Positions 36,737 to 51,329 of a stretch of DNA of 64,000 nt are shown here, piece by piece (positions within the stretch are counted from its first letter, which is position 1; each line of letters starts with the position of its first letter). A program made the position numbers and the translations under genes. The notes beneath the pieces were generated by a model. It was not told where the DNA came from and ran no database searches. It saw nothing but the letters and a program-made list of their open reading frames with translations. The stretch spans positions 1 through 64,000 of the forward strand of contig JAEUUJ010000014.1 of NCBI GenBank assembly GCA_016786495.1, given 5' to 3'. This DNA comes from Cyclobacteriaceae bacterium (GTDB taxonomy: Bacteria; Bacteroidota; Bacteroidia; Cytophagales; Cyclobacteriaceae).

Positions 36737-37405
36737 ATGCAGATTCTTTCAAGTTCTTTTGGTGTCCTTTTGATCGTTGGTTTTTGCCTTTCGGCAGAAG
36801 CCCAAAGTTCTGTAAAAATAGCAAAACTCAAGTACGGTGGTGGTGGCGACTGGTACGCCAATAAAACCGCCTTGCCGAACCTGATCAAGTTCTGCAATGC
36901 CGAACTGAATACCTCACTCGCAGCGGATGAAGACGTGGTGGAAGTGGGAAGTAAGGAATTGTATCTGTACCCCTACGTGTATATGACGGGCCATGGTAAC
37001 GTAGTATTCAGCGAAAGCGATGCTGCGAATTTGCGCAATTACCTGATCGGGGGCGGCTTTTTACATGTTGATGACAATTACGGCCTTGACAAATTTATTC
37101 GCATCGAATTAAAAAAAGTTTTCCCGGAACTGGAGCTGGTTGAACTCCCCTTCGACCATCCGGTGTATCACCAGAAATTTAACTTTATAAAAGGCCTTCC
37201 GAAGATTCACGAACATGATGGTAAACCTGCCCAGGGTTTTGGGTTGATCTATGAAGGACGTTTGGTAGTTTTTTACTCATATGAATGTGACCTGGGCAAT
37301 GGTTGGGAAGATATGCGGGTACACAATACACCGGAAGCGAAGCACCAGCAAGCCTTGCAAATGGGCGCGAACCTGATTTCGTATTGCTTCACTACATCGA
37401 AGTGA
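36737..37405 (+). CDS. DUF4159 domain protein, secreted
   Basis: The 222-residue product has a signal peptide (about 1-22). It then follows the DUF4159 pattern: KLKYGGGGDWYAN, YPYVYMTGHGNVVFSESDAANLRNYLIGGGFL cut at about 73-104, VDDNYGLD, and ELVELPFDHPVYH..F. The fold resembles a GATase-like or MoxR-associated alpha/beta domain. Such proteins often sit near MoxR/vWA genes, but none are present here. Function is unknown. Confidence 0.8.
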   Translation: MQILSSSFGVLLIVGFCLSAEAQSSVKIAKLKYGGGGDWYANKTALPNLIKFCNAELNTSLAADEDVVEVGSKELYLYPYVYMTGHGNVVFSESDAANLRNYLIGGGFLHVDDNYGLDKFIRIELKKVFPELELVELPFDHPVYHQKFNFIKGLPKIHEHDGKPAQGFGLIYEGRLVVFYSYECDLGNGWEDMRVHNTPEAKHQQALQMGANLISYCFTTSK

Positions 37406-37414
37406 GGCAAATAA

Positions 37415-37439
37415 AAAACCCCGGGAGTGCCGGGGTTTT
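37415..37439. terminator. Bidirectional terminator
   Basis: AAAACCCCGG (37415-37424) pairs with CCGGGGTTTT (37430-37439), a 10-bp stem with a 5-base loop. It ends the DUF4159 gene and the convergent TonB-locus operon. Confidence 0.85.
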
Positions 37440-37460
37440 AGTTGAAATTATTGAAATAGT

Positions 37461-40124
37461 TTACCTAGCCTCTACCTTCACGTTATCTACTCGATTGGTT
37501 CCTCCAGTAGCGATCCCACTACCTGTGTGAACAAGCCTGAAGACAAGTGTTGATTGATTATTCAATGCTGTTACTGAACTCAAATCGTAACTGAAGGAAG
37601 TAGTTGTGATTGCAGCGCCAGAGGCCCACGTTGCCTGAATAACCGTGTAATCCGCATGCTTTGTAAAATTGGTGCCATCGGTCGAATAGTACAATGCGAA
37701 GGCCGAAGGACCGCTGCCACTGCGAGTTTGATCCCAACTTATCTTGAGGTCCGCCATTCCGGTGGAATTGGTTGCAAACTGATAGTAATCATTGGTATCC
37801 CAAAAATTTGAACTAAATGATTCGGCGCTTCCATTGCCAGCGGGATTGCTGTATACTGTTGAAGCCGACAAATGGACCCCTGAAGCTATTGACGCAACTG
37901 CCAGGGTTCCTGACTCCGCTTGTAAATTAGCACTTACCGCTCCTGTTGAGTTTGGAAGCGAGGTTTCGAAAGTCCACAATGCGAGCGTCTGCAACGGACT
38001 GGCTCCAACCCCTGTTCCGCTCACATTAACAACAACACTCGCAGCACCTAATGACTTATGCGCAATCGTGCCATTTTGTGCTCCACCATTGGCTGGTATA
38101 AATTTGACATATACCGTTGTGGCCAAATTGGCGCTAGCAGCAGGGATTGTAACAGAAGATTCATAGGTTCCGCCTTGTGTTAGCGAAACTTTAAACCCGG
38201 CGGACGCAGTCACGATGATATCGCCTATCAAACTTGTTCCCTGCACAACGTAAGACTGATCAGCTGATTCAGCACCCGTATTCACCGAGCCGAAATCTGC
38301 TAATGCTCCCGTTATACCTATCGTTCCGGAAGGGTTATTCGTAAACACGTCATTTGCAAACACGATCGGGATAATCTGCGCTGCCCCGCTATTTTCTCCG
38401 GCAAGGCCGGTGATCGTTCCAAAGCCGTAAGGCATAACCGATGCCGCGTGAGGAGCCGTCGTTTCCGTTCTCACGTTTGTGGTGGTGGTTCCATTAGAAA
38501 CCGCACGTGTGCCTGACATAGTCGCAGTTCCGTTCGCGTCAACAAATGCGACATCGCTGATGCTAACCAGTTTACCTTCGAACGCATTTGAATTAAGTTG
38601 TGCTACGGTAATGACCTCGGGTGTTGGCAGAGCCGCACCCTTGCTGTTCACTACCACATTGGCATTAGGAACATTCTGAATCTGAAGCAAGCCACTGAAT
38701 TCAAAATACTGTCCGCCATTCAACTGGATGGTTACATCATCGCCCCGTTCAACAGTGTTGTTGTTGGCTGCAGCCAGGCGCACCACGATTCCGCCTGTGT
38801 TATCCTGCACCCAAATGTTGTTGGTATTCACTTGCGGATTGCTTGAAGTTACTACACCACGGATGCGCAACGAACTGGTAATGTTCGTGGTTGTTCCCGG
38901 GAACGCAGCCCGTACATCAGCGATCGTAGCAATCGCATCGTCTTCCTCGATGGTTACTTCGTAGCTTGTGCCGGTGGTACCCAGTGTTACCACACCGGTA
39001 GATTCAGTCAATGTGAAGGTTAGCTCACGATTAGCAGTTACCTCCGTATCGTTTACCGGAATAACTTTGAAGCTGGAGCTTCCAGTGGATGTAGCAATGT
39101 TCAGTGTAATTTTTCCACTTACCGCTGCCGGATCGGTGGTAAAATCTTCGCCATAGGTGCCGCCTGTGAACGAAATCACAGCTGTTCCTGTACCATTCGT
39201 TGCAGGTGTCAATGTCACCGGCACGGTTATTCCGGTAGCATTATCTTCCGATGTTGATGCTGTCGTGCCGTCAAATGCTGCAACAGAAGGAGTTTCATTA
39301 TCCGTAATCGACAGGGTGTGTGACGTAATGGTTGTGCCCAGTTCAACGGCACCGGTTGCCTCTTCAAATGTAAAGTTGATCGTTCGTGTAGCATTAACAG
39401 ATCCATCGTCAACCGGCTTCACTTTGAAGTGAACCGTGGTCTCTCCTACTGCCACCGGAACTTCGAGCAGACCCGATGCAACGGCAGGCTCGGTAATGAA
39501 GTTAGTCGTGTACGTTGCGTTCGCTGACTCAAATGCAACAACCACAGAACCTGTTCCCGGAGCCGGGCTTGTCAGGTTGATGGTAACATCGATACCATCG
39601 GTAAGGTTTTCCGCAGTACTGCTGGATGCTACAGCAAAGTTTGCACGGGTCGGGCCCTCATCATCGTTAATGGTGATCAGGTCGGAATCCGTTGCTCCGA
39701 TCTCAAATCCACTGCTGACATCCGCAATCGTGAAGGTTACTGTTTTGTCCTCTTGAAGAAGCGCGTTGTTTACAGGCGTAAACGTGAACTGCGTAGAGGT
39801 TTGGCCTTTTGAAACCTCCAGCTCAAGGGTGCCCGAACTTCCGTTTGGGTTGGTCAGGTAGTGGGTTGTATAATCCGTTTCAGCACCTTCCGTGGCTGTT
39901 ACCGTAATGGTACCATCGCGGCCGGCTGCTTTGTCAAAATTCAGCAACACGGTTATCGAACTTCCGCTTTCAGAAACAGACTGTTGAGCGGTCGAAAATT
40001 GTACGGTTGCAACGGCTACCGGATTCTCATCGTCCTTACACGATGATATCAGTACCAGCACAAATAAAACAATGCTGGCGGCAATTTTGCTCATTAAACC
40101 AAAGATGTGATTCTGCTTTATCAT
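37461..40124 (-). CDS. Calx-beta/DUF5689 surface lipoprotein
   Basis: The 887-residue product has a signal peptide and lipobox (LISSC). Three Calx-beta-like repeats follow (about 40-390), each ending in an (ITINDDE/ITDNE/IEEDD) acidic calcium-type motif. A DUF5689 segment follows with IADVRAAF..TSSLRIRGVVTS, NIWVQDNTGGIVVR and VTIQLNGGQYFEFSGLLQIQN (about 400-560), the last an OB-fold-like strand set. An Ig-like domain and a C-terminal jelly-roll complete it. It is fourth in the operon with the TonB receptor and two choice-of-anchor lipoproteins. I infer a surface-exposed binding protein. OB-fold nucleic-acid binding is a plausible but unproven role. Confidence 0.82.
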   Translation of the reverse strand: MIKQNHIFGLMSKIAASIVLFVLVLISSCKDDENPVAVATVQFSTAQQSVSESGSSITVLLNFDKAAGRDGTITVTATEGAETDYTTHYLTNPNGSSGTLELEVSKGQTSTQFTFTPVNNALLQEDKTVTFTIADVSSGFEIGATDSDLITINDDEGPTRANFAVASSSTAENLTDGIDVTINLTSPAPGTGSVVVAFESANATYTTNFITEPAVASGLLEVPVAVGETTVHFKVKPVDDGSVNATRTINFTFEEATGAVELGTTITSHTLSITDNETPSVAAFDGTTASTSEDNATGITVPVTLTPATNGTGTAVISFTGGTYGEDFTTDPAAVSGKITLNIATSTGSSSFKVIPVNDTEVTANRELTFTLTESTGVVTLGTTGTSYEVTIEEDDAIATIADVRAAFPGTTTNITSSLRIRGVVTSSNPQVNTNNIWVQDNTGGIVVRLAAANNNTVERGDDVTIQLNGGQYFEFSGLLQIQNVPNANVVVNSKGAALPTPEVITVAQLNSNAFEGKLVSISDVAFVDANGTATMSGTRAVSNGTTTTNVRTETTAPHAASVMPYGFGTITGLAGENSGAAQIIPIVFANDVFTNNPSGTIGITGALADFGSVNTGAESADQSYVVQGTSLIGDIIVTASAGFKVSLTQGGTYESSVTIPAASANLATTVYVKFIPANGGAQNGTIAHKSLGAASVVVNVSGTGVGASPLQTLALWTFETSLPNSTGAVSANLQAESGTLAVASIASGVHLSASTVYSNPAGNGSAESFSSNFWDTNDYYQFATNSTGMADLKISWDQTRSGSGPSAFALYYSTDGTNFTKHADYTVIQATWASGAAITTTSFSYDLSSVTALNNQSTLVFRLVHTGSGIATGGTNRVDNVKVEAR

Positions 40125-40146
40125 AAGTGGTTGTTTACTATACTGG

Positions 40147-41112
40147 TTATTCTACTTTAAAGGTCAGGTTGTCGATGTCCCACGATGAAGACGAAGAACT
40201 TAATCCGCCCGTGTATACAAAGGCGAGGTAAACCGAGTTGCCGGATATGTTGGTAAAAGTTCCGGTAACGGTAGTCCAAACCTGTGATGCGACTGCGGGG
40301 AATTGACTGTCAAGCGTTGGCAAACTAGTCCATGTTGCGGTAAGCGGATTGCCCGAACCGGCATAGTTGTTCGACCACTTCATATTAATCACACCGGGAC
40401 CCGAGAACTGTGAGAAGGTTGAGAAGGTGATCGTTACGGTAGCCCCTGAAGGAACATTCACAGGATTCATGATCAGCCAGGCCCGGTCTTCACCAGCCGA
40501 ACCGCCAAACGCACTGGCGCGCGGTGCGCGCGAAGGCCCAACACCAAAGGCGCGACATCCCCAGCCGCGATCTGTTTTCGATCCCGGTTCAAAGGCTTCC
40601 ACAAAACCCGTGGGTGTCGAGAAGTCGGTGGTACATCCGTTAAAGTCATGAAAAATTGTTACCGGCTGGAACCCTGTGATCGATAACGTATAGGAAAGGG
40701 TTGCTGCCTGACCCGGATTGAGTTTGTTACCCGATACTTCAATAATTTGAAAGTTAATGTTACGCAGGTCATCGGTGCTGGCCGCCGGAATCACCCAGAA
40801 CGATGGCTGTTCATCCTCCGGATCGATGGTTACCGTAATGATCCCGTCAACGGGTTCCGGATCGGTCGTGAAGTCTGCACCGTAGGTTAGACCGTCAATA
40901 TTGTTTACCTGAATTTTCACCGTTACAGGCTCGGTGATTTCTACGTTCGAATAGAACCCGATGCGAATGCCTGTGGAGTTAGTCTCCAGCACGCTTCCCG
41001 AACTGGCTGTAAAACCCAGCGAAGGTTTCACCGAAAAGCTGCTTTCATCGCCATCGCATCCGAGCGTAAAGGCGGCCAAACCAGCAAGTACAATAGAATA
41101 TATCCGCTTCAT
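40147..41112 (-). CDS. Choice-of-anchor domain lipoprotein, second copy
   Basis: The 321-residue product has a lipobox TLGC, one Calx-beta-like repeat (about 30-150), then a choice-of-anchor-J-like jelly-roll (about 165-321) ending SSSSSWDIDNLTFK. The protein upstream ends almost the same way (SSSSSWRIDDFSIK), and shares ITVTI and SFWVIP/SFAFTP-type strands. The pair is therefore a tandem duplication with diverged sequence. Likely cell-surface exposed and co-expressed with the receptor. Confidence 0.75.
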   Translation of the reverse strand: MKRIYSIVLAGLAAFTLGCDGDESSFSVKPSLGFTASSGSVLETNSTGIRIGFYSNVEITEPVTVKIQVNNIDGLTYGADFTTDPEPVDGIITVTIDPEDEQPSFWVIPAASTDDLRNINFQIIEVSGNKLNPGQAATLSYTLSITGFQPVTIFHDFNGCTTDFSTPTGFVEAFEPGSKTDRGWGCRAFGVGPSRAPRASAFGGSAGEDRAWLIMNPVNVPSGATVTITFSTFSQFSGPGVINMKWSNNYAGSGNPLTATWTSLPTLDSQFPAVASQVWTTVTGTFTNISGNSVYLAFVYTGGLSSSSSSWDIDNLTFKVE

Positions 41113-41115
41113 AAC

Positions 41116-42093
41116 TTAGTTTCCTTTAATCGAGAAATCATCAATTCTCCAACTGGAAGAAGAACTGGTTGTTCCGCCTGCATGGTGTATGGCGATATAA
41201 ACCGGTTCATCGCCTATGCCCTCCAGCAACTGCGCCACACCTGTCCACTCCTGTGAACCTGCTGCAGGTAACCCGCTGTTAATGTCAGTGAGTTCAGTCC
41301 AGGTTACGCCATCAGCTTCCGGACTTCCGGTTCCGGGATAGTTGGTACTGTACAAAAACTTAATTCCACCACTTCCGGTAAAGCGCGAATAAACCTGCGC
41401 GCTGATGTACAGGTTATTGTATTGTGTGCCATCGATCGGGTTTGTCGTAACCAGGTAGGTGTTCGATCCGGTGGTACCGCCCTTATTAAATGCATTCGCT
41501 TCACGGCACGAGTTCGAAGAAACTTCATCCGGATATCCAAAACCTGAACAGCCCCATGTACTTACACCTGACGCAATACGTTCGGTAAAATTTGTACCGG
41601 GACATGTGCTGAAATTGTCGAAGAAGAATGCAGCAGTATTGTCAGTAACCTTCATCGAGAAATGCTTCTGCCCGATTGATTTGATTTCGTTATCGGTTTC
41701 TTCAATCGTGAATGTATACTGATAGTCGGTTGGAATGAAAATACCGTCATTTTTGGGCGTAAAGGCGAACGAAGCTTCAACCTCGCCGCGCGGAATGGTT
41801 ACGGTGATAATACCCGGCTCAAGCTGCGGCGGAAATGTTGTATACGAATTCCCGTAACCGGCTCCGTTGCCAGCAATCCGAATGTTAACCCGTGAATCTT
41901 CCGCCAGCACGCGCGAAGTCCGAAGCACAACGGTCAGCGGAAGTCCGGCTGCATTTTCTTCAGGCTCCGCACCTGTGGCATTCAGGGACGGATAAAACGT
42001 GATGGTTGCCGGTTCGTAGTCTTCTTCACACGAAAGAAGAAATGCAAACGCGAACAACGATGCGATACTATATAGTTTAAGCGTACGACTCAT
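41116..42093 (-). CDS. Choice-of-anchor domain lipoprotein, first copy
   Basis: The 325-residue product starts at the ATG at 42091-42093, which gives a lipobox LLSC after a short hydrophobic stretch. It has a Calx-beta-like N-terminal domain (about 25-135) and a jelly-roll with six Cys-free strands ending SSSSSWRIDDFSIKGN. It follows the receptor stop by 4 bases. It is paralogous to the next gene in the operon. Confidence 0.76.
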   Translation of the reverse strand: MSRTLKLYSIASLFAFAFLLSCEEDYEPATITFYPSLNATGAEPEENAAGLPLTVVLRTSRVLAEDSRVNIRIAGNGAGYGNSYTTFPPQLEPGIITVTIPRGEVEASFAFTPKNDGIFIPTDYQYTFTIEETDNEIKSIGQKHFSMKVTDNTAAFFFDNFSTCPGTNFTERIASGVSTWGCSGFGYPDEVSSNSCREANAFNKGGTTGSNTYLVTTNPIDGTQYNNLYISAQVYSRFTGSGGIKFLYSTNYPGTGSPEADGVTWTELTDINSGLPAAGSQEWTGVAQLLEGIGDEPVYIAIHHAGGTTSSSSSWRIDDFSIKGN

Positions 42094-42097
42094 GATC

Positions 42098-44716
42098 TTA
42101 GTTAAAATAAACGGTGGCAGAAATCGAGAAATTGATTGGGAAGCCATAAGCCTCCTGAACACCAAACGCTTCGTCTGATCTGCGGATGAACGTGTCGTTT
42201 AACAGGTTGTGAATGTTGAATCCTAACCTCGACCGGATGTCACTGATGTCGAAATAATATCCGCCATAAATGTCAACAATGACGTAATCGGGCAACTTTC
42301 TAACCTGCTTGAAACCAGGTTGAATGCGATCGGCCGGCTCGAACGATTCATACAAATCACCAAAGTAGTTTACACGAATACCTACGTACGTATCTTTTAT
42401 CCGTTTGTAGTGAACTCCCAGGAAGGCAGTGGTCTGCGCTGTGTTTCCAACTTTCAAGCCTTTCGTATACACACCCTGCTCCTGCACTTCGCCCGCCACG
42501 GTATCGCGGGTTATCGCGTTGCTTGTCCAGCGCCAGTCGCCTTTAGTGAAAGCACCGGTGATTTCGATTCCCTGGAAAGGCTCGTAGCGGAAGTCAAGCT
42601 CTACTCCTTTGTGCACCGCAGCAAGACCGCTCAGCGCCTGCCGTTGCAGCGTTTGCGGATCAACAAACGCTTCGTTTGCAAGAATGCGATCTTTCCATTG
42701 TGTGTAGTATACATTCAGATTGGCGCGGAACCTGGAACTGCGGTATGAGTATCCCGCTTCCGCAGAATAGATACTTTCGTTCTTAAGGTTTTCCAGGAAC
42801 TGATTGCCGTACCGGGAATCGACAAACACATTGCGCATGTAGGGAGCGCGCTTGAACGTTCCGCCATTGACGAACACGTTGTGACGACCCGTGATGCGAT
42901 AGTTTACCCCGGCCTTTACATTGTAATTGTTGAATACGCGTTTATCGGAACTTCCAAGGGAGTTGTTGATAAAATCAGAATCACCGCTCCAGAAGTTACC
43001 CACACGCCACATCTGAATGCGTGAGTAGTTGGCTGAACCAAATATGTCGAACTGCCCGATGGTTTTCTCGACTTGCGCAAAGGCCGATCCCCAGCGAACA
43101 TTGCCATCGTAGTTATACCGGATCTTGTCGCCCTTTAACGCTACGCGGTTTGGCGTTAACAGGTTATTGTCGGTACCGGAGAACTGATCAACCCAGAAGT
43201 CGCCACCCAGCAAATGATGTACTTTCGCATAGTGCGTAGCCGTATAGTCGCGCAAGTCGACACCGGCAACAATGGATGTGGATGGATCAATCTGATAGTT
43301 CAGGTTCGAGATTACTCCATACCAGTTGTGGTTGTTGTAACGCGCTTCGATGATGCGTGTGGATTGTGATCCGGTAAGAGAAGTTCCGTATGCACCGTAC
43401 GGATTCTGAATGGTCTGAACGTTCGCGATGTTCGCAGCTTTATACGCGTCAAAATCCTGATAACCTTCCTTGGTTTGGATTTCAGATGCTCCTGCTCGTG
43501 CAGTTCCGTACGCCCGCGCGATGGATACATAGGCTGACGTAGTGAGCGTCATCCGGTCGTTGATATCCCAAAGCGACATGAGTGTTGCCTGCGGCTTGTG
43601 AGAATAGTTTTGAGATACTGACGTAAGCTGACCGTTGTAATACCCCATGGCCGAGTTATGCAGGTAGTTGTCGTACTTCTCATAATTTTCGGTGTTCGTA
43701 TTGTATGCGCGACCGCGATCGGCAGGCGCCCCGAAAATGGTAAAGAGCAGCGTATGATTGTCTGCCACTTTTTTAGATGCGGTTAAAAAGTATGACCAGG
43801 CGTCCACGTAGGTACCTTCCCGGATACCCGAGTTTGCGCCCGAGAAGTAGCCATTATTTTTATTGAAAATATTTGTACCCGTGGTGCGGGATCCCTGAAA
43901 CGTAAATGCCCAGCCGTTCTTAAGCTGGCCACTGTTTAACGTTAGCCGATATCGGTTGGCAAATGAGCCATTCCCAAACGTCACATCAGCATTGCCGCCC
44001 CGTTTGCGTTCCGATGGTGTGGTAACAATGTTAACCGTTCCGCCCACGGAGTTCACTGCCAGTTTGGATGCTCCGAGTCCGCGCTGTACCTGCATGTTGC
44101 GAGTGATCTCGCTCAGGCCGGCAAAGTTTGCCCAGTACATGATACCGTTTTCCATATCGTTGGTGGGAACACCGTTGATCATGAAAAGAACTTCTTCTTG
44201 TCCAAACCCGCGAATGTTCATGTAAGCATCGCCGTATGATCCATCGCCCTGCGTGGCATAAATGCCGGGTGTTGAGTTGAGAATTTCAGGCAGGGCCATG
44301 CCACCAAGCTGCTCATCAATTTCAATCTGACTGATATTGGAAACTGCTACAGGTGTTTTCCGGTCTTCAACGATGTTTGCAAAAACTTCAATTTCCTGGA
44401 GGCCGATGGCTGTTGACCGAAGTTCGATTTGCCCGAGCGCAACCGTTTGGCCCTCAACCACGGTTACTTCGCGGGTAATTTCTTCATAGCTGACATACTT
44501 AATCCGGATGGTTTTCTTTCCGACCGGAACATTTTTAAGCGTAAACGCTCCGTTCAAATCGGTGATTTCTCCGAGGTTGGTTCCGTCAACAAGCACGGTT
44601 ACCCCAATCAGGGCTTCTTTGGTTTCAGGATCAGCGATGGTTCCGGTGATGGTACCGGTTTGTGCGAAAATGAGGGAGGTGCAAAAGAGTAATGAGATAC
44701 AAACTAGAATTCGCAT
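42098..44716 (-). CDS. TonB-dependent receptor (CarboxypepD_reg-like N-domain)
   Basis: The 872-residue product has a signal peptide (about 1-19, FAQ). A carboxypeptidase-regulatory-like beta domain follows (about 20-106) with GTITGTIADPETKEALIGVTVLVDG cut at 24-43 and onwards, then a plug with SNISQIEIDEQLGGMALPEILNSTPGIYATQGDGSYGD cut to its key PEILNSTPG, and MNIRGFGQEEVLFMINGVPTNDMENG. A 22-strand barrel ends TVYFN. It imports a large or scarce substrate with TonB energy. The three downstream genes encode its likely surface partners and no SusD is present. The divergent endonuclease genes suggest a nucleic-acid or phosphodiester substrate. Confidence 0.92.
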   Translation of the reverse strand: MRILVCISLLFCTSLIFAQTGTITGTIADPETKEALIGVTVLVDGTNLGEITDLNGAFTLKNVPVGKKTIRIKYVSYEEITREVTVVEGQTVALGQIELRSTAIGLQEIEVFANIVEDRKTPVAVSNISQIEIDEQLGGMALPEILNSTPGIYATQGDGSYGDAYMNIRGFGQEEVLFMINGVPTNDMENGIMYWANFAGLSEITRNMQVQRGLGASKLAVNSVGGTVNIVTTPSERKRGGNADVTFGNGSFANRYRLTLNSGQLKNGWAFTFQGSRTTGTNIFNKNNGYFSGANSGIREGTYVDAWSYFLTASKKVADNHTLLFTIFGAPADRGRAYNTNTENYEKYDNYLHNSAMGYYNGQLTSVSQNYSHKPQATLMSLWDINDRMTLTTSAYVSIARAYGTARAGASEIQTKEGYQDFDAYKAANIANVQTIQNPYGAYGTSLTGSQSTRIIEARYNNHNWYGVISNLNYQIDPSTSIVAGVDLRDYTATHYAKVHHLLGGDFWVDQFSGTDNNLLTPNRVALKGDKIRYNYDGNVRWGSAFAQVEKTIGQFDIFGSANYSRIQMWRVGNFWSGDSDFINNSLGSSDKRVFNNYNVKAGVNYRITGRHNVFVNGGTFKRAPYMRNVFVDSRYGNQFLENLKNESIYSAEAGYSYRSSRFRANLNVYYTQWKDRILANEAFVDPQTLQRQALSGLAAVHKGVELDFRYEPFQGIEITGAFTKGDWRWTSNAITRDTVAGEVQEQGVYTKGLKVGNTAQTTAFLGVHYKRIKDTYVGIRVNYFGDLYESFEPADRIQPGFKQVRKLPDYVIVDIYGGYYFDISDIRSRLGFNIHNLLNDTFIRRSDEAFGVQEAYGFPINFSISATVYFN

Positions 44717-44806
44717 CAAGGCTTAGAGTTTTAGTGGCTGTTTCAGGCAGGCGCAAATATAGAATTCACGTATGCCCTGTTTCAGGTTGCGATATTAACA
44801 AATCTT

Positions 44807-44814
44807 TATCTTTG
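44807..44814 (+). promoter_or_regulatory. Consensus -7 box (TATCTTTG) of the EEP operon
   Basis: TATCTTTG matches TAnnTTTG exactly, with TTGC at 44787-44790 as a possible -33 element. Transcription would start near 44819, 16 bases before the ATG. This is one side of the divergent TonB/EEP intergenic region. Confidence 0.65.
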
Positions 44815-44834
44815 ACGCCACCGGATTCAGAAAA

Positions 44835-45863
44835 ATGAAAAGGAAAACTAATTTTGCGCCCGTGAAAAACACCTTGATCGTTCTCCTTTTTCTTTTACTC
44901 GACTTCACTTTCTCCATTGCCCAGCAAAATACCAAGCCCTCGCAGGCTATTGTAGGTTTTTACAACCTTGAAAACCTGTTCGACACGATCAATGATCCGA
45001 AAACCATTGACGAAGAATACCTTCCGGAAGGTGCCAATAACTGGACAGACGAACGGTACGCGATCAAACTCGCCAACATGTCGAAAGTGATTGCTTCCTT
45101 CTATCCGGATATTTTAGGCGTAAGCGAAATTGAGAACAGAAAAGTACTCGAGGATCTCGTAGCCCATCCAAACATAGCTTCAAAACGTTACCAGATTATA
45201 CATTTCGACATGACTGACGACCGTGGGGTGGATGTTGCCCTGCTGTATCGGGCTTCAGTTTTTAAGCCTTTCAGCATCAAAAAGTTAGTCATCAAAAATC
45301 CCGAAGAACCCAATTTCAAAACCCGTGACATTTTATGGGTGAAAGGACTTTGCCTGGGTGATACCCTGCATGTAGCCGTGAATCACTGGCCTTCACGCAG
45401 GGGCGGAAAAGAAGACATGCGGTTAATTGCTGCGGCCGTTCTTCGCAAGGCTGTAGATTCCGTACTGGCGATCAATCCGAAAGCCAACATTGTGATGCTC
45501 GGTGATTTTAATGACGACCCGAATAACCGAAGTATCAAAAAGATTCTGCTGGCGGGGGATGACGCACAAAAAAAGCATACGCTCGTAAACACGGCTGAAC
45601 CTACTTTCAAAAAAGGATATGGTACACTGTCGTTCAACGGTGCGTGGAATTTGTTCGACCAGATTATCATTTCGAAAGCACTGAATGATCAGTCCGGTAT
45701 CGATTACTCACCGGAAAGTTTCACCGTGTACGTGCAGCGCTGGATGCTCGTGGAGAGCGGAAAGTACAAAGGAACTCCCAGCCGGACCTTCAGTAGCGGA
45801 GTTTTCAATCCGGAAGGGTACAGCGATCACTTACCCGTATTTATTTTACTCAAAAAGTATTAA
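44835..45863 (+). CDS. Secreted endonuclease/exonuclease/phosphatase family enzyme, copy 1
   Basis: The 342-residue product has a signal peptide (about 1-29, ending SIAQ). EEP-fold motifs are GFYNLENLFD (N), ILGVSEIENR (the Glu metal ligand), NHWPSRRGG, MLGDFNDDPNN (Asp, Asn catalytic set) and a final YSDHLPVF (Asp-His). This full set is typical of DNase-I-like phosphodiesterases. It is exported to the periplasm or medium. The second copy follows after 9 bases. Both are divergent from the TonB operon. Whether the substrate is DNA, RNA or a lipid head group is not shown. Confidence 0.88.
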   Translation: MKRKTNFAPVKNTLIVLLFLLLDFTFSIAQQNTKPSQAIVGFYNLENLFDTINDPKTIDEEYLPEGANNWTDERYAIKLANMSKVIASFYPDILGVSEIENRKVLEDLVAHPNIASKRYQIIHFDMTDDRGVDVALLYRASVFKPFSIKKLVIKNPEEPNFKTRDILWVKGLCLGDTLHVAVNHWPSRRGGKEDMRLIAAAVLRKAVDSVLAINPKANIVMLGDFNDDPNNRSIKKILLAGDDAQKKHTLVNTAEPTFKKGYGTLSFNGAWNLFDQIIISKALNDQSGIDYSPESFTVYVQRWMLVESGKYKGTPSRTFSSGVFNPEGYSDHLPVFILLKKY

Positions 45864-45872
45864 GCTTATCAC

Positions 45873-46802
45873 ATGAAAAAAGTATTCGCCTTGTTGTTCA
45901 TTACGGTATTGATCTCGTGTCAGGAAGAAATCACGCCCATTGTGAAGTTGAATGAAGATCCGACAGAAAATCCGGGCGAAGATCCCGATGAAGAACCTGC
46001 AAGCTGTGAACTCCCTGCCGTTACCATGGTGGCCGGGAAATATGCCAATTGCATTCCGCTGCTTAGCAATTCAACCTTCGACATTGTCACATGGAACATT
46101 GAACAGTTCCCCAAAACCGGTAACACGATTTCTTTGCTGGCGGAAATTATCCCAACCCTGAATGCCGACATCATTGCGGTTCAGGAGATCGGCAGCACGA
46201 CCAACTTTACGTCACTGGTGGCTGCGTTGCCGGGTTGGAGCGGTGTGGTATCGGGCGGCTCACTAAAAACAGGCTACTTGTATAAGACCGCGGAGGTGTC
46301 TGTATCTGCCGCAACCTATCCCCTCTCCGATGCAAGCGCATTTCCGCGTCAGCCGATGTTCATTACGGCTACTCACACCAATGGCATGGAAGTCACGCTG
46401 ATCAACCTGCATTTAAAATGCTGTGATGATGGAAACAGCATCGACCGCAGACGAAGCGCTTCCGAACAACTGAAGGCTTATATTGATGCAAACCTCAGCA
46501 ATAAAGCTGTGGTGATGCTTGGAGACTATAACGAAGACATTACCCAACCGGAGGGCAACAACGTGTTTGAAAATTTTGTGTCAGACGAAGCCAACTACGA
46601 GTTTGCCGATATGACCATCGCAGAATGCAGCTCTGCTTACTGGAGCTATCCAAGCTGGCCAAGTCAGCTCGATCATATGCTCATCACCAACGAGCTTTTC
46701 GGAAAAGTGAAAGATATCCGGGTGTTGCGGTTGAATGAGTGTGACGGGGCGTATTACAGCACGATTTCCGACCACCGGCCGGTTTTAATGCAGCTCCAAT
46801 AA
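45873..46802 (+). CDS. Lipid-anchored endonuclease/exonuclease/phosphatase enzyme, copy 2
   Basis: The 309-residue product has a lipobox (LISC) then an acidic linker (EDPTENPGEDPDEEP). EEP motifs are VTWNIEQFP, IIAVQEIGS, LHLKCCDD, MLGDYNEDIT, SQLDHMLITN and ISDHRPVLMQLQ. The distinct N-terminal anchor and linker set it apart from the first copy, which is secreted. A Cys pair (CC in HLKCCDD) is unusual. A terminator follows at 46810. The pair suggests one soluble and one cell-tethered phosphodiesterase. Confidence 0.87.
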   Translation: MKKVFALLFITVLISCQEEITPIVKLNEDPTENPGEDPDEEPASCELPAVTMVAGKYANCIPLLSNSTFDIVTWNIEQFPKTGNTISLLAEIIPTLNADIIAVQEIGSTTNFTSLVAALPGWSGVVSGGSLKTGYLYKTAEVSVSAATYPLSDASAFPRQPMFITATHTNGMEVTLINLHLKCCDDGNSIDRRRSASEQLKAYIDANLSNKAVVMLGDYNEDITQPEGNNVFENFVSDEANYEFADMTIAECSSAYWSYPSWPSQLDHMLITNELFGKVKDIRVLRLNECDGAYYSTISDHRPVLMQLQ

Positions 46803-46809
46803 AAATTTC

Positions 46810-46831
46810 AAGCGGAAAATTTCTTCCGCTT
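46810..46831 (+). terminator. Intrinsic terminator of the EEP genes
   Basis: AAGCGGAA (46810-46817) pairs with TTCCGCTT (46824-46831), followed by TTATTTT. Confidence 0.8.
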
Positions 46832-46845
46832 TTATTTTGATCCTA

Positions 46846-46885
46846 TTAACTAAAGATTTAGTTTTAAAACGTAATCATTAGTTAA
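46846..46885. promoter_or_regulatory. Candidate BlaI-type operator
   Basis: AACTAAA (46848-46854) and TTTAGTT (46857-46863) form an inverted repeat across GA, and TTAACTAA (46846-46853) is inverted again as TTAGTTAA (46878-46885). These half-sites lie within 45 bases of the start of an operon that encodes a BlaI repressor, so self-regulation is plausible. Confidence 0.45.
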
Positions 46886-46890
46886 GGTCG

Positions 46891-47904
46891 ATGAAAAAAG
46901 CTGTCTTTTCACTGATTTTGAGCATGTTAACACTATGCGTGAGTGCTCAGATAACCCTGGAGGTGAGAGCCGATGTCGCGGTTGACAGCATATTTTTTTC
47001 CAACATCACGCAGGACAAGGAGTACCAATTCATCCCCTACTCCCCTTACCGCTACATTAAAATGAACGGTCCGATCAACGACCTCTATAACATTACATTT
47101 TACGGCAGCACGGGCAAGCGCATGAATCAGCTTTGGCTGAACGGAACTAACGTCACGATAAAGGGAACGTTCACCGGAAGGAAACTGGAGGTTGATACTG
47201 TGATCGGATCAGACCTCTATTATAAATCACTTGACTTTCGCAACCGTTACGATCAACTGAAAGAAAGTAAAGCCGACTCTTTGGCCATTAATACATTCCT
47301 GCTGAACGAAATCAAAGAAAACATTGGCAATGTGTTTTCGGTTGAGATCGGGCAGACGTTTTTCTATCGTAACATGAGCCGCAAACCTGAACTCACAAAG
47401 CTCTACACGCTGCTGCTCCATCAGGACGTGGGCATTCGCAACCATTTATTCAGTCCGTACCGGAAAATTGAGAACATTCTTTCCCGCGATAAAATCGACT
47501 TTTCAACGTTCCAATTTTATACACCCGAGGGTAAACTGGAGGAATTAACCCTTTCACCGGAAAAGAAATATTTGATTGACATGTGGTTTGTCGGTTGCGC
47601 TCCATGCATCGAACAGCACAAGGAAATCTTAAAGAAGCTGGAAATGCTAAAGCATGATAACATCGAAGTTATCGGAATCTCGGTGGATCAGCAGCAGCAG
47701 CAATGGGCAGATTTTTTAACGGCCAAAAAATACCCGTGGAAAAACCTGCGTGAGGTAGACGACTACACGAAAAAACTAAGAACCGATATGCTGATCGACA
47801 GCTACCCCACGTATTTCCTGCTTGACGGCAGTGGCAAAATCTCCTATCGGGCCAACGCATTTACTGAAATCCTCAAATACCTTCAACCGGAAACCGCACC
47901 ATGA
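46891..47904 (+). CDS. TlpA-like thioredoxin-fold protein, secreted
   Basis: The 337-residue product has a signal peptide (about 1-19, VSAQ) and an N-terminal beta domain. A C-terminal thioredoxin fold follows with the redox motif CAPC (about 236-239) in WFVGCAPCIEQHKEIL, and VIGISVDQQQQQWADF plus the cis-Pro in SYPTYFLLDG. It would act as a periplasmic thiol reductase/oxidase. It overlaps the BlaI gene by 4 bases and is first in that operon. The QQQQQ run is an oddity. Confidence 0.85.
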   Translation: MKKAVFSLILSMLTLCVSAQITLEVRADVAVDSIFFSNITQDKEYQFIPYSPYRYIKMNGPINDLYNITFYGSTGKRMNQLWLNGTNVTIKGTFTGRKLEVDTVIGSDLYYKSLDFRNRYDQLKESKADSLAINTFLLNEIKENIGNVFSVEIGQTFFYRNMSRKPELTKLYTLLLHQDVGIRNHLFSPYRKIENILSRDKIDFSTFQFYTPEGKLEELTLSPEKKYLIDMWFVGCAPCIEQHKEILKKLEMLKHDNIEVIGISVDQQQQQWADFLTAKKYPWKNLREVDDYTKKLRTDMLIDSYPTYFLLDGSGKISYRANAFTEILKYLQPETAP

Positions 47905-48263
47905 AAGAACTAACCAAAGCTGAAGATCAAATCATGCAAGTGTTATGGAAGCTTGAAAAAGCTTTCGTGAAAGACATCATTGAAGAATTACCCAAGCCGA
48001 AGCCGGCTTACAACACGGTGTCTACGATTATCCGGATTTTAGAAACAAAAGGGTTTGTTGATCACACCGCCTACGGAAAAACACATGAATACTTTCCGTT
48101 GATCTCGAAAGAGCAGTACACCAAGTTTTACCTGAACTCCATGCTCAAGGGATATTTCAACAATTCGTTTGAAAACCTTGTGTCGTTCTTCGCCAAGGAA
48201 AACGATATGGACCTGAAAGACATTGAAAAATTGTTGAAGGAGGCTAAAACCAAAAAGCCATGA
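47901..48263 (+). CDS. blaI: BlaI/MecI-family repressor
   Basis: The 120-residue product is a winged-helix BlaI/CopY-type repressor: LTKAEDQIMQVLWKLEKAFVKDIIEELP cut at about 3-22, AYNTVSTIIRILETKGFVDH and a dimerisation tail. It is normally released by cleavage when a linked M56/BlaR1 protease is activated. Two such proteases follow directly (ATGA overlap), and a thioredoxin precedes. It probably controls this operon through the palindromes at 46846-46885. No beta-lactamase gene is nearby, so the inducer may differ from beta-lactams. Confidence 0.92.
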   Translation: MKELTKAEDQIMQVLWKLEKAFVKDIIEELPKPKPAYNTVSTIIRILETKGFVDHTAYGKTHEYFPLISKEQYTKFYLNSMLKGYFNNSFENLVSFFAKENDMDLKDIEKLLKEAKTKKP

Positions 48264-49777
48264 ACGCATATCTGAACTATCTTCTCGAAGCCAGCATCGG
48301 ATTGTGCTTGTTTCTCGTGGTGTACCAGCTGTTGCTTAGAAAAGAGACGAACTTCCGGTTCAACCGGATATTTCTGCTGATTGGTCTTGGCGCCTCGGTG
48401 CTCTTTCCGCTTATCAAACTGCCCGCGTCCAACTCCCCTGTCCCGTCACTTAACCTGTCGGTTCAACCCGCTGCTACAGAAGCAGACCTGATTTATTCGC
48501 AGCAAGTGATTCCGCAAAACACCTGGACAACCTGGGAAGTTTTAACCGTGATTTATACTATCGGACTGGCGTTGTTCTTTCTGGTATTTGCCGTTCGACT
48601 GGGCAGGATGATCATCGCCCTGCGGGCATCAGCCAAATACAACCTTCAAAACCATCACATAGTTGAATTAAGCAACACAAGCAGTTCGTTTTCATTTTTC
48701 AACTACATTTTTATCGGCAGTACGCCTCCCCTGACAGAAAGCGAGAAACAGCAAATCATTGAACATGAAAGAATTCATGCAAAGCTTTTTCACTCGGTTG
48801 ATATTGTGTTGTTGAACATACTCGGAATTGTCTTCTGGTTTAATCCGGTGATCCGGGTTTACAAAAAAATATTTGTTCAGCTTCATGAGTTCGAGGCAGA
48901 TGCGCGCGCAGTCGAAATCCATGATGTGAACGAGTACTGCAGCCTGCTGGCAAGGGTTGCTTTACATTCGGCCAATTACCGACTGGCCAATCACTTTAGT
49001 AATTCATTAACCGTTAAACGAATTGAAATGATGCGAGCAATCAAACAAAAGATAAGAAGCTGGAAGATGATCGCAGTAGCGGCATTTGTTCCGATGTTGT
49101 TTTTCGCGATTTCATGCCAGGATCAGGTAAGCGATATCGTCTACACCGAAAAAGATGGACGTGTGCCTGTTGCGATTGAATATTCTCCTGAGCCAATTGA
49201 ACAACGCATTGACGCTCTAAATAAAGCGAACCCTGACCGAAACTACGTGGCAGTTGACATAACCGAATATTTCCGCGCCACCGAGCAAATTTTCGATGAT
49301 CATCTCGCGTTCAGACGTGATATCAAAAAGTATAACCTGCCAGAGATTGTTGAGATGCGTTTTGAATATGTTGATGATCCAAAATCTCCTGAAAGATACC
49401 GAAGCTACGCGGTAATCGATCTTAATCAACGAAGTGTAAATCCAGCGTCTGTCAGAACAAAACAGGTGCCGCTTCCCAATAGTGTCAGGGAAATCGCATC
49501 GGGCTTGAAAGCAAAGTTCCCAAAACGCCACTATAAAATCTTTGGGCCATCTGAAGATGCACCAGAAGTTAAAGATACCGACCCCCGAACCGGCATTACA
49601 CCAATCGTATTTCAAGGTATTATCTGGGGATCCGTATCGCATGAAACAGTGCGGGCGAAAGACAAAAAAGGAGATAACGTTTACTACTTGATCCTTGAAA
49701 TAGTTCGCGGAAAAAAGCTTGCCCCGGAGGAGATCGAAGAAATTAATAAGAAAAACCCTGGCAATCCAATTATCTAA
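48260..49777 (+). CDS. BlaR1-like M56 metallopeptidase, sensor type A
   Basis: The 505-residue product has four N-terminal transmembrane segments. The zinc motif is HERIH (169-173) within EKQQIIEHERIHAK, with E213 in HEFEADARAVE as probable third ligand. Residues about 1-290 are nearly identical to the next gene, including long exact stretches of DNA. Residues 291-505 form a different, largely beta extracytoplasmic domain with no family I recognise. By analogy it cleaves BlaI after sensing a signal through this domain. It has a hydrophobic segment at about 269-286, ending in ISC. Confidence 0.88.
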   Translation: MNAYLNYLLEASIGLCLFLVVYQLLLRKETNFRFNRIFLLIGLGASVLFPLIKLPASNSPVPSLNLSVQPAATEADLIYSQQVIPQNTWTTWEVLTVIYTIGLALFFLVFAVRLGRMIIALRASAKYNLQNHHIVELSNTSSSFSFFNYIFIGSTPPLTESEKQQIIEHERIHAKLFHSVDIVLLNILGIVFWFNPVIRVYKKIFVQLHEFEADARAVEIHDVNEYCSLLARVALHSANYRLANHFSNSLTVKRIEMMRAIKQKIRSWKMIAVAAFVPMLFFAISCQDQVSDIVYTEKDGRVPVAIEYSPEPIEQRIDALNKANPDRNYVAVDITEYFRATEQIFDDHLAFRRDIKKYNLPEIVEMRFEYVDDPKSPERYRSYAVIDLNQRSVNPASVRTKQVPLPNSVREIASGLKAKFPKRHYKIFGPSEDAPEVKDTDPRTGITPIVFQGIIWGSVSHETVRAKDKKGDNVYYLILEIVRGKKLAPEEIEEINKKNPGNPII

Positions 49778-49787
49778 TTTCAATTCA

Positions 49788-51329
49788 ATGAACGCGTATC
49801 TGAATTATCTTCTTGAGGCAAGCATCGGATTGTGTCTGTTTCTGGTGGTGTATCAGCTGTTGCTTAGAAAAGAGACGAGCTTCCGGTTTAACCGGATATT
49901 TCTACTGATTGGTCTTGGCGCATCGGTGCTCTTTCCACTTATCAAACTACCGGCATCCAACTCCCCTGTCCCGTCTCTTAACCTGTCGGTTCAACCTGCA
50001 GTTACGGAAGCGGACCTGGTTTACGTGAAGGAAATTCTTCCGCAACAAACCTGGACTACCTGGGAAATCGTAACCGTGATTTATACTGTCGGACTGGCGT
50101 TGTTCTTTCTGGTATTTGCCATTCGGTTAGTCAGGATACTCATGACCTTACGCAACTCGGTTACGTATGAATTCCAAAATCACCGCATCGTAGCGTTGGA
50201 AAATACGAGCAGTCCGTTTTCATTCTTCCACTACATTTTTATCGGAAACACGCCCCCGCTAACGGAGCATGAAAAACAGCAGATCATTGAACACGAACGC
50301 ATTCACGCAAAGCTTCTGCATTCGTTCGACATCGTTTTGCTGAATCTGTTGGGGATTATCTTCTGGTTTAATCCGGTGATCCGGGTTTACAAAAAAATAT
50401 TTGTTCAGCTTCATGAGTTCGAGGCAGATGCGCGCGCTGTCGAAACCCATGATGTGAATGAGTACTGCAGCCTGCTGGCAAGGGTTGCTTTACATTCGGC
50501 CGACTACCGGCTGGCCAATCACTTTAGTAATTCCTTAACCGTTAAACGAATTGAAATGATGCGAACAATTAAACAAAAAATAAGAAGCTGGAAGATGATC
50601 GCGGTCGCGGCATTTGTTCCTGTGCTGTTCTTCGTGGTGTCTTGCCAGGATCAGGTTGAAACAACAGCCGCTGTGGCGGATGCCAGCTATCCGAAAAGTG
50701 TGCAGCAGGCAATTGACCGGCTGAAAGCTACCAACCCCAATGCTGATTTTATTGTGGTACCTCCGTCCGGGCCCAACCTCAAAGACTTCGAAGGCAAGCA
50801 TGCCAATCACATCAGCGTGATCGATGGTGAATACGTTTTTGAAGCTGTCTCCATGTTGATGATCAAAGCGGGCGAAGATGCCAACGGAAATCCGCAGAAC
50901 TATATGATTCTGGATTACAGCTCCGAGCGATCAACGCGACTTCCTACGGAAGATGAGTGGAAGAGAGCCAGTGAAGTTTGGGAAGAAAAGCTTGACAATT
51001 CTATCGATGGCGAACCGATTTTCATAGCCGTTGAGCAACAAGCCTCTCCTAAAGAAGGAATCAACGCATTTACGAATAGCATTAAGCAAAAAGTACGTTA
51101 TCCGGCAGAAGCAAAACGTTTGGGCTTGCACGGGAAAGTATTCGTTAAGTTCGTGATCAAAAAGGATGGAACTGCAACAGACTTTGAGATCGTAAAAGGT
51201 ATTTCAAAAGAACTTGATCTGGAAGCCTTGCGCGTCCTTCAGGCGGAAATAAAGGGATGGAATCCTGCCAAACAAAATGGCAAACTAGTCCACTCACAAT
51301 TTGTTATGCCGATACAATTTGGTGACTAG
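49788..51329 (+). CDS. BlaR1-like M56 metallopeptidase with TonB C-terminal domain, sensor type B
   Basis: The 513-residue product from the ATG at 49788 has the same N-terminal transmembrane and HERIH protease domain as the previous gene. After about residue 290 it carries an unrelated linker and, at about 430-513, a TonB C-terminal domain: VRYPAEAKRLGLHGKVFVKF cut at that length, GTATDFEIVKG and LDLEALRV. M56-TonB fusions occur in Bacteroidota and may couple sensing to outer-membrane receptors. A start at 49719 would overlap the first gene and is not supported. A terminator follows at 51339. Confidence 0.88.
   Translation: MNAYLNYLLEASIGLCLFLVVYQLLLRKETSFRFNRIFLLIGLGASVLFPLIKLPASNSPVPSLNLSVQPAVTEADLVYVKEILPQQTWTTWEIVTVIYTVGLALFFLVFAIRLVRILMTLRNSVTYEFQNHRIVALENTSSPFSFFHYIFIGNTPPLTEHEKQQIIEHERIHAKLLHSFDIVLLNLLGIIFWFNPVIRVYKKIFVQLHEFEADARAVETHDVNEYCSLLARVALHSADYRLANHFSNSLTVKRIEMMRTIKQKIRSWKMIAVAAFVPVLFFVVSCQDQVETTAAVADASYPKSVQQAIDRLKATNPNADFIVVPPSGPNLKDFEGKHANHISVIDGEYVFEAVSMLMIKAGEDANGNPQNYMILDYSSERSTRLPTEDEWKRASEVWEEKLDNSIDGEPIFIAVEQQASPKEGINAFTNSIKQKVRYPAEAKRLGLHGKVFVKFVIKKDGTATDFEIVKGISKELDLEALRVLQAEIKGWNPAKQNGKLVHSQFVMPIQFGD

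Follow-up and report, generated by a model that had tools for sequence, protein, structure and literature searches.

In Riemerella anatipestifer, markerless deletion of RA0C_RS04915, which encodes a receptor, or of RA0C_RS04920 brings transformation below detection, and the model published for this organism comprises a DNA-binding lipoprotein, a barrel, and a nuclease converting duplex to single-stranded DNA that was left unnamed (PMC8459023). The tonBA and tonBB mutants of this species also transform poorly (PMC8383284). The matter addressed here is how Bacteroidota carry DNA across the outer membrane. We describe a six-gene locus at positions 37461-46802 of a 64,000-nucleotide stretch, hereafter the window (positions 1 to 64,000 of contig JAEUUJ010000014.1, assembly GCA_016786495.1, from a Cyclobacteriaceae bacterium), in which a TonB-dependent-type receptor and three lipoproteins, one of them with a DUF5689 domain, are encoded divergently from two DNase-I-like (EEP) enzymes, EEP1 and EEP2. 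We favor, without strong conviction, the reading that these genes make up a Bacteroidota locus for TonB-driven capture and import of DNA. The linkage of PF19580, the family of EEP1, supplies a candidate for the nuclease left unnamed in the R. anatipestifer model (PMC8459023). In addition, the lipoprotein domain gains a DNA-binding-type fold, and the module is shown in the window's own order too. If it takes place, the passage of DNA through a TonB-dependent barrel would to our knowledge be unusual for that receptor class. In the portions of the open-licence PubMed Central (PMC) literature covered by our searches, no prior description of an EEP1-receptor-DUF5689 module was found.

Gene organization of the locus

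The six genes formed two divergent units, and the list of open reading frames (ORFs) of the window and the Pfam domains agreed with the initial annotation, which had reported a TonB receptor and two EEP enzymes among six genes on two strands. The minus-strand unit, read from 44716 to 37461, consisted of the TonB-dependent-type outer-membrane receptor (42098..44716), a first (41116..42093) and a second (40147..41112) anchor-type lipoprotein, and an 887-amino-acid (aa) lipoprotein (37461..40124), with spacers of 4, 3, and 22 bp, respectively. The plus-strand unit consisted of EEP1 (44835-45863) and EEP2 (45873-46802), separated by 9 bp. The receptor start was moved to the ATG at 44716 and that of the first anchor-type lipoprotein to the ATG at 42093 (TTG at 42165 in the ORF list).

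The divergent ATGs were 118 bp apart, and this interval (44717..44834), which had been proposed as a shared regulatory region, indeed contained one correctly oriented TAnnTTTG box per strand, TATATTTG at 44754-44761 (minus) and TATCTTTG at 44807-44814 (plus). We take TAnnTTTG to be the Bacteroidota -7 box. Over the whole window, the two strands together contained 29 TAnnTTTG boxes, compared with a higher number, 41.7, in shuffled sequences; hence, about 0.05 would be expected in any 118 bp. A scan for sigma-70-type promoters found 8 sites against 11.9 expected.

Linkage of EEP1, receptor, and DUF5689 lipoprotein

PF19580 was present in 90 of 158 sampled Bacteroidota genomes (about 98 genes). 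The regions around 80 of these genes were read, the others coming mainly from the two most frequent genera of family f34, and EEP1 was recognised in 78 of them (all except L121 and L123). The receptor was the immediate neighbor of EEP1 in 15 of the 78 neighborhoods; it was divergent from EEP1 in all 15, and in each a PF18942 (DUF5689) lipoprotein followed the receptor, 1.0-4.2 kb from EEP1. A lipoprotein profile was built from the neighbors, including the anchor proteins, and PF18942 served as a check. These 15 loci span 12 genera and four families, all of the window's class, within which they represent half of the 30 PF19580 loci. Linkage of the two strands in other genomes had been set beforehand as a test of the initial annotation, and it held up; chance neighborhood was rejected because the same divergent pair recurred at this frequency.

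The same arrangement was found within narrower groups. In the window's order, PF19580 occurred in 81 of 292 genomes, and among 20 regions read out of 86 places, the receptor was adjacent and divergent in four (L170, L172, L174, and L187), being split into two ORFs in L172. Weeksellaceae-type regions had the divergent EEP1-receptor pair in 16 of 20 cases, and the divergent trio of EEP1, receptor, and DUF5689 was present in 79 of the best 80 of 258 named loci, mostly from Chryseobacterium, the 80th ending at a contig edge. One family, which its named loci identify as Weeksellaceae, had a Chryseobacterium-type receptor in 115 of its 120 genomes. Starting from DUF5689, 17 of the 24 genes scoring at least 100 bits lay within 10 kb of PF19580, four lay at 15-41 kb on the same contig, and three were elsewhere, whereas none of the 10 weaker genes (56-90 bits) was within 10 kb; second domains of one gene and matches below 56 bits were left out of this count. 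In the genomes G083, G125, G198, and G079 (genus g48), a distance of 15-41 kb on the same contig separates EEP1 from DUF5689, which would resemble a pair that was split.

In the EEP1 tree, a single set of 52 rows (support 95) took in 41 of the 43 linked ones; the two outside it are second copies, from L073 and L082. The EEP1s of the window, L023, and L187 formed a single branch within the linked set (support 100). The unlinked EEP1s included a group adjoining a polA-like gene and another group in a different conserved setting (both labeled by look). Taken together, these sequence comparisons indicate that the receptor, the DUF5689 lipoprotein, and EEP1 constitute a conserved module. An explanation in which EEP1 is merely a chance or regulatory neighbor and the receptor-lipoprotein pair acts alone would suit the 63 of 78 loci where the receptor is not beside PF19580 and the separation of 15-41 kb in some Flavobacterium-like genomes. 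EEP1 is also not among the genes struck in a transposon screen of 3,000 insertions (PMC8459023, Table 1), although such a screen may not be saturating. Since the adjacent pairs were divergent without exception over 12 genera and the linked EEP1s form one clade, we consider this explanation quite improbable.

The trio was also present at L150 and at L190 (R. anatipestifer CCUG25054), where ComEC (PF03772 by Pfam), a gene of 145 aa, a carboxyl transferase gene of 542 aa, and EEP1 were followed by the divergent receptor and DUF5689 genes, and likewise in R. columbina (L191). This order fits the published tags (ComEC, RS04895; receptor, RS04915; DUF5689, RS04920; PMC8459023); accordingly, by tag spacing, the R. 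anatipestifer EEP1 should be RS04910. In that paper, RS04910 is apparently the upstream gene of a polarity test, the word "endonuclease" is used only for restriction enzymes, and no mention of a nuclease neighbor was seen. The EEP1s of the window and L190 shared 41% identity in the alignment and 35% by BLAST.

Lipoproteins and the predicted fold of DUF5689

The 887-aa lipoprotein had been described as a Calx-beta/DUF5689 lipoprotein with OB-fold-like strands. DUF5689 (PF18942) was confirmed at 6.3e-27 in residues 398-586 (38367-38933), upstream of an anchor-like C-terminal region, whereas Pfam made no Calx-beta call at E 0.01; residues 37-396 instead comprise three repeats of about 120 aa, 25-39% alike, which are also related to the N-terminal halves of both anchor-type lipoproteins. 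PF18942 (E 0.001) and PF19580 (E 1e-30) each had one match in the window genome, both at this locus. The two anchor-type lipoproteins were 31% identical to one another and scored 28.5 (first) and 29.5 bits (second) with the choice-of-anchor J model NF038128, just below its cut-off of 30, in keeping with the tandem choice-of-anchor lipoproteins named initially. The lipobox pattern was found in the DUF5689 protein (C-KDDE) and EEP2 (C-QEE), and C-EEDY and C-DGDE were seen by eye behind the signal peptides of the anchor-type lipoproteins. Acidic residues after the lipobox cysteine resemble the surface-export signal of Bacteroidota lipoproteins.

Searched by sequence, solved structures gave no match to EEP1, EEP2, the DUF5689 protein, or the receptor. 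A structure of DUF5689 was modeled from the window domain and 39 rows from the named loci (predicted local distance difference test score (pLDDT), 79; predicted template-modeling (TM) score, 0.76). The model was predicted to be a tandem OB fold, which bears out the OB-fold-like strands, and its fold matched HIN-200 proteins (IFI16, p202, p204, and kin), the telomere protein Teb1, and RPA. All 38 matches at E 0.001 or better were HIN-200, Teb1, or RPA entries, a few of which we take to belong to these groups. The 887-aa protein is thus proposed as the DNA-binding subunit on the strength of PF18942, the lipobox, the repeats, and this model. Furthermore, DUF5689 was found between an endonuclease I domain (PF04231) and a type IX sorting tail in two fusion proteins (L024:12525-14477 and L026:12867-15422), both encoded two genes after receptor paralogues of a neighboring clade. 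In L026, the OB-fold nucleic-acid-binding profile PF01336, below its cut-off, falls inside the DUF5689 stretch. Separately, DUF5689 scored above its cut-off in the Bacillus subtilis control genome at E 0.001 but not at 1e-8; presumably, this match is the extracellular nuclease YhcR.

EEP enzymes

EEP1 belongs to PF19580 (Exo_endo_phos_3; 7.2e-104, 347.6 bits against a cut-off of 27), and its NHWP, GDFNDD, and YSDH stretches were invariant across 22 aligned rows; we assume a catalytic role for these motifs. EEP2 matched PF03372 (1.9e-12, 47.9 bits against 24.5). One enzyme had been described as secreted and one as tethered. The latter stands, as EEP2 is a lipoprotein (C-QEEI) and would be a surface nuclease by its profile score and lipobox. 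For EEP1, inspection by eye showed a plain signal peptide and Pfam gave no sorting domain, so that a periplasmic location is more likely than secretion, and on its profile score and motifs we propose it as a nuclease there.

The EEP1 model (pLDDT 68) matched the folds of TDP2, nocturnin, ANGEL2, and Bacteroides EEP proteins. Because nocturnin, ANGEL2, and, at rank 50, a Bacteroides mannosyl-6-phosphatase are among these matches, we considered that another phosphodiester or phosphate-bearing ligand, such as phospholipid parts, a phosphorylated glycan, RNA, or cyclic nucleotides, is imported after release by the EEP enzymes. The neighbors of some receptor paralogues, described below, would fit varied ligands in the receptor clade, and DUF5689 was not seen in the two closest relatives. 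This explanation is nevertheless unlikely, as the fold matches of DUF5689 are DNA binders, DUF5689 is fused to endonuclease I, and homologues have a transformation phenotype. The machine most likely handles DNA.

Receptor

By Pfam, the receptor contained CarbopepD_reg_2, Plug, and TonB_dep_Rec_b-barrel domains. A SusCD locus was rejected: as stated in the initial annotation, no SusD family was among the Pfam matches of the six proteins, and the SusC/RagA model TIGR04056 matched only the N-terminus, at 63 bits against a cut-off of 368. With the R. anatipestifer-type receptor of L150 as the query, the window receptor (2e-33) was the sole match in the window genome at an E limit of 1e-5. Some receptor paralogues are divergent from an M14 zinc carboxypeptidase gene, as in L032:5344-7908 (Pfam) and, by look, at similar ORFs of L024 and L033, which suggests peptide-like ligands for part of the clade of the window receptor.

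Nearest relatives and genomic site

L023, of the same family, had the layout of the window, with EEP2, EEP1, the receptor, a pair of anchor lipoproteins, and a short ORF of repeats; its third lipoprotein (L023:7100-8277) consists of a repeat ORF of 155 aa, after which come stops and then a distinct ORF of 180 aa with no Pfam match. L187, from another genus, combined EEP2, EEP1, and the receptor with a single anchor lipoprotein. Two genes from its EEP2 lies a gene (L187:703-7611) for a 2302-aa protein that contains four lamin-tail domains as well as a type IX sorting tail. The anchor proteins of L023 and L187 had DUF5017-type ends, above the cut-off in L187 only; DUF5017 is also reported for RS04920 of R. 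anatipestifer (PMC8459023). In L037, the receptor, lipoproteins, EEP1, and EEP2 were all on the same strand, and two lipoproteins contained DUF5689.

No receptor match at 1e-40 was obtained in the 16 other genomes of the window's genus, with at most 16 first-look candidates scored per genome. The DUF4159 gene flanking the module was present in all 17 genomes, and its distance to an M56-peptidase gene similar to that of the window was 0.5-2.7 kb in 11 of the 16 other genomes, compared with 10.9 kb in the window (36737-51329), because the module sits between them; of the remaining five, four had no M56 match and one had M56 on another contig. The guanine-plus-cytosine content was 0.487 against 0.477 for the window, and the L187 module adjoins DUF4159, Penicillinase_R, and M56 genes, the same flank as in the window. 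A recent foreign insert is therefore not favored, and repeated loss or local exchange fits better. Relative to its relatives, the window locus is, by its gene content and receptor tree, a variant with an extra surface-type EEP2, two extra anchor lipoproteins, and a receptor of another clade, absent from the other 16 genomes of its genus.

Terminator-like hairpins were found 3' of the receptor operon (37415..37439, minus strand, 10 pairs) and 3' of EEP2 (46810..46831, plus strand, 8 pairs), so that the limits of the system are those drawn initially; such hairpins were not in excess in the region (11 against 10.2 in shuffles). A TlpA-like gene (46891-47904) was rejected as a member, since the hairpin that follows EEP2 precedes it and visual inspection showed no thioredoxin-like gene next to EEP2 in L037 or L187 (L023 ends there). 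Further along are tandem BlaR1/M56-type genes (48260-49777 and 49788-51329), 80% identical over 333 residues. A TonB C-terminal domain ends the second of them, as it does a gene adjoining the L187 module (L187:15511-17040), and such an M56-type gene is a possible energy source next door.

The absence from the genus and the empty sites resemble an accessory nutrient trait. The same machine might feed on extracellular DNA or RNA, EEP2 cutting it at the surface, short pieces entering, and EEP1 degrading them to nucleotides for phosphorus and nucleosides. We give this explanation, which is compatible with DNA capture and import, a little less than an even chance. Two EEP enzymes, one of them surface-type, accompany window-type receptors also in L023 and L187, and R. 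columbina is reported to be transformable, more so without phosphate or peptone (PMC7965970). R. anatipestifer, in contrast, is reported to transform less without phosphate (PMC8383284), the relatives tested act in transformation (PMC8459023), and by Pfam the six proteins include no phosphatase or nucleoside transporter.

Proposed function

The initial annotation had envisaged a complex at the cell surface for binding, cutting, and importing an extracellular phosphodiester polymer or its products, possibly DNA or nucleotides, as a supply of phosphate or nucleotides. Conserved linkage, the tandem OB fold, the endonuclease I fusions, and the published genetics of homologues (PMC8459023) support such a complex and make DNA its probable substrate. 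In the DNA import that we favor, lipoproteins on the outer face would grip DNA by means of DUF5689 and its tandem OB fold, and the lipoprotein EEP2 would nick or shorten it at the cell surface. The TonB-energised receptor may then move DNA into the periplasm; in R. anatipestifer, full transformation depends on a homologue of this receptor and on two TonB proteins. EEP1, expressed from the divergent promoter and likely periplasmic, might trim the DNA to a single strand for ComEC or to nucleotides. Natural transformation is about as likely an end use as phosphate or nucleotide supply in our analysis, and the two are not exclusive.

Several observations weigh against this reading. No PF19580 locus was linked outside the window's class (0 of 48), and no PF18942 was found in the neighboring lipoproteins scanned in L023 and L187, the two closest relatives of the window. 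Lipids, sugars, and RNA are substrates of EEP-fold enzymes as well, and the structural matches of EEP1 do not favor one of them. The OB matches have modest TM-scores (0.27-0.46) and are therefore a statement on fold class, and the model rows are 18-28% identical to the window; the DUF5689 proteins of the window and R. anatipestifer are connected by profile match only, with no pairwise match. Identity between the receptors of the window and R. anatipestifer is 24%, and in both receptor trees the receptors of the window, L023, and L187 form a clade separate from the R. anatipestifer clade and closer to receptors without EEP1 (the second tree leaves out eight long-branch or near-copy rows, and its outgroup root is weak). 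The effect of tonBB is perhaps exerted via iron (PMC8383284), and Flavobacterium johnsoniae carries homologues yet was not transformable (PMC8459023).

On the sequence evidence, then, the window module is shared with R. anatipestifer, its receptor is not a strict ortholog, and DUF5689 is unseen in the nearest kin of the window. The other genes essential for transformation of R. anatipestifer include those for ComEC, a DUF1343/NamZ_N protein, DprA, ComF, RecA, and an HHH protein; of these, ComEC and DUF1343/NamZ_N were sought and occurred once each in the window genome, although ComEC was matched in 10 of 14 control genomes as well. A broader proposal, which we offer tentatively, is that Bacteroidota use a TonB-driven beta-barrel where DNA uptake in other Gram-negative bacteria relies on a pilus and secretin, that a tandem-OB lipoprotein feeds DNA to the receptor, and that the divergent PF19580 enzyme is the duplex-to-single-strand nuclease for ComEC, the window representing a two-nuclease version.

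Comparison with known systems

SusC/SusD nutrient receptors resemble the locus in having a TonB-dependent receptor with a CarbopepD_reg domain and surface lipoproteins, but the window has no SusD and its receptor is far below the cut-off of the SusC model. The extracellular nucleases ExeM/NucH have an EEP nuclease domain as well, associated with OB-type domains. In the window these domains are on separate proteins, and the scores with the ExeM/NucH model NF033681 were 36 (EEP1) and 22 bits (EEP2) against a cut-off of 300. At the endonuclease I-DUF5689 loci L024 and L026, a related receptor is likewise accompanied by a lipoprotein and by a nuclease that bears DUF5689; unlike the EEP enzymes, that nuclease is a PF04231 protein of unrelated fold, fused to DUF5689 and equipped with a type IX sorting tail.

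The R. anatipestifer locus differs from the window in its receptor, which falls in a different clade, in having one 469-aa lipoprotein instead of three, and in lacking EEP2, while ComEC adjoins it there and is on another contig in the window genome. At both loci, nevertheless, the receptor and the DUF5689 lipoprotein belong to a single operon, with two anchor-type lipoproteins in between in the window, and, as a feature that is absent from the paper and proposed here, the window has a divergent PF19580 enzyme, as do L190 and L150.

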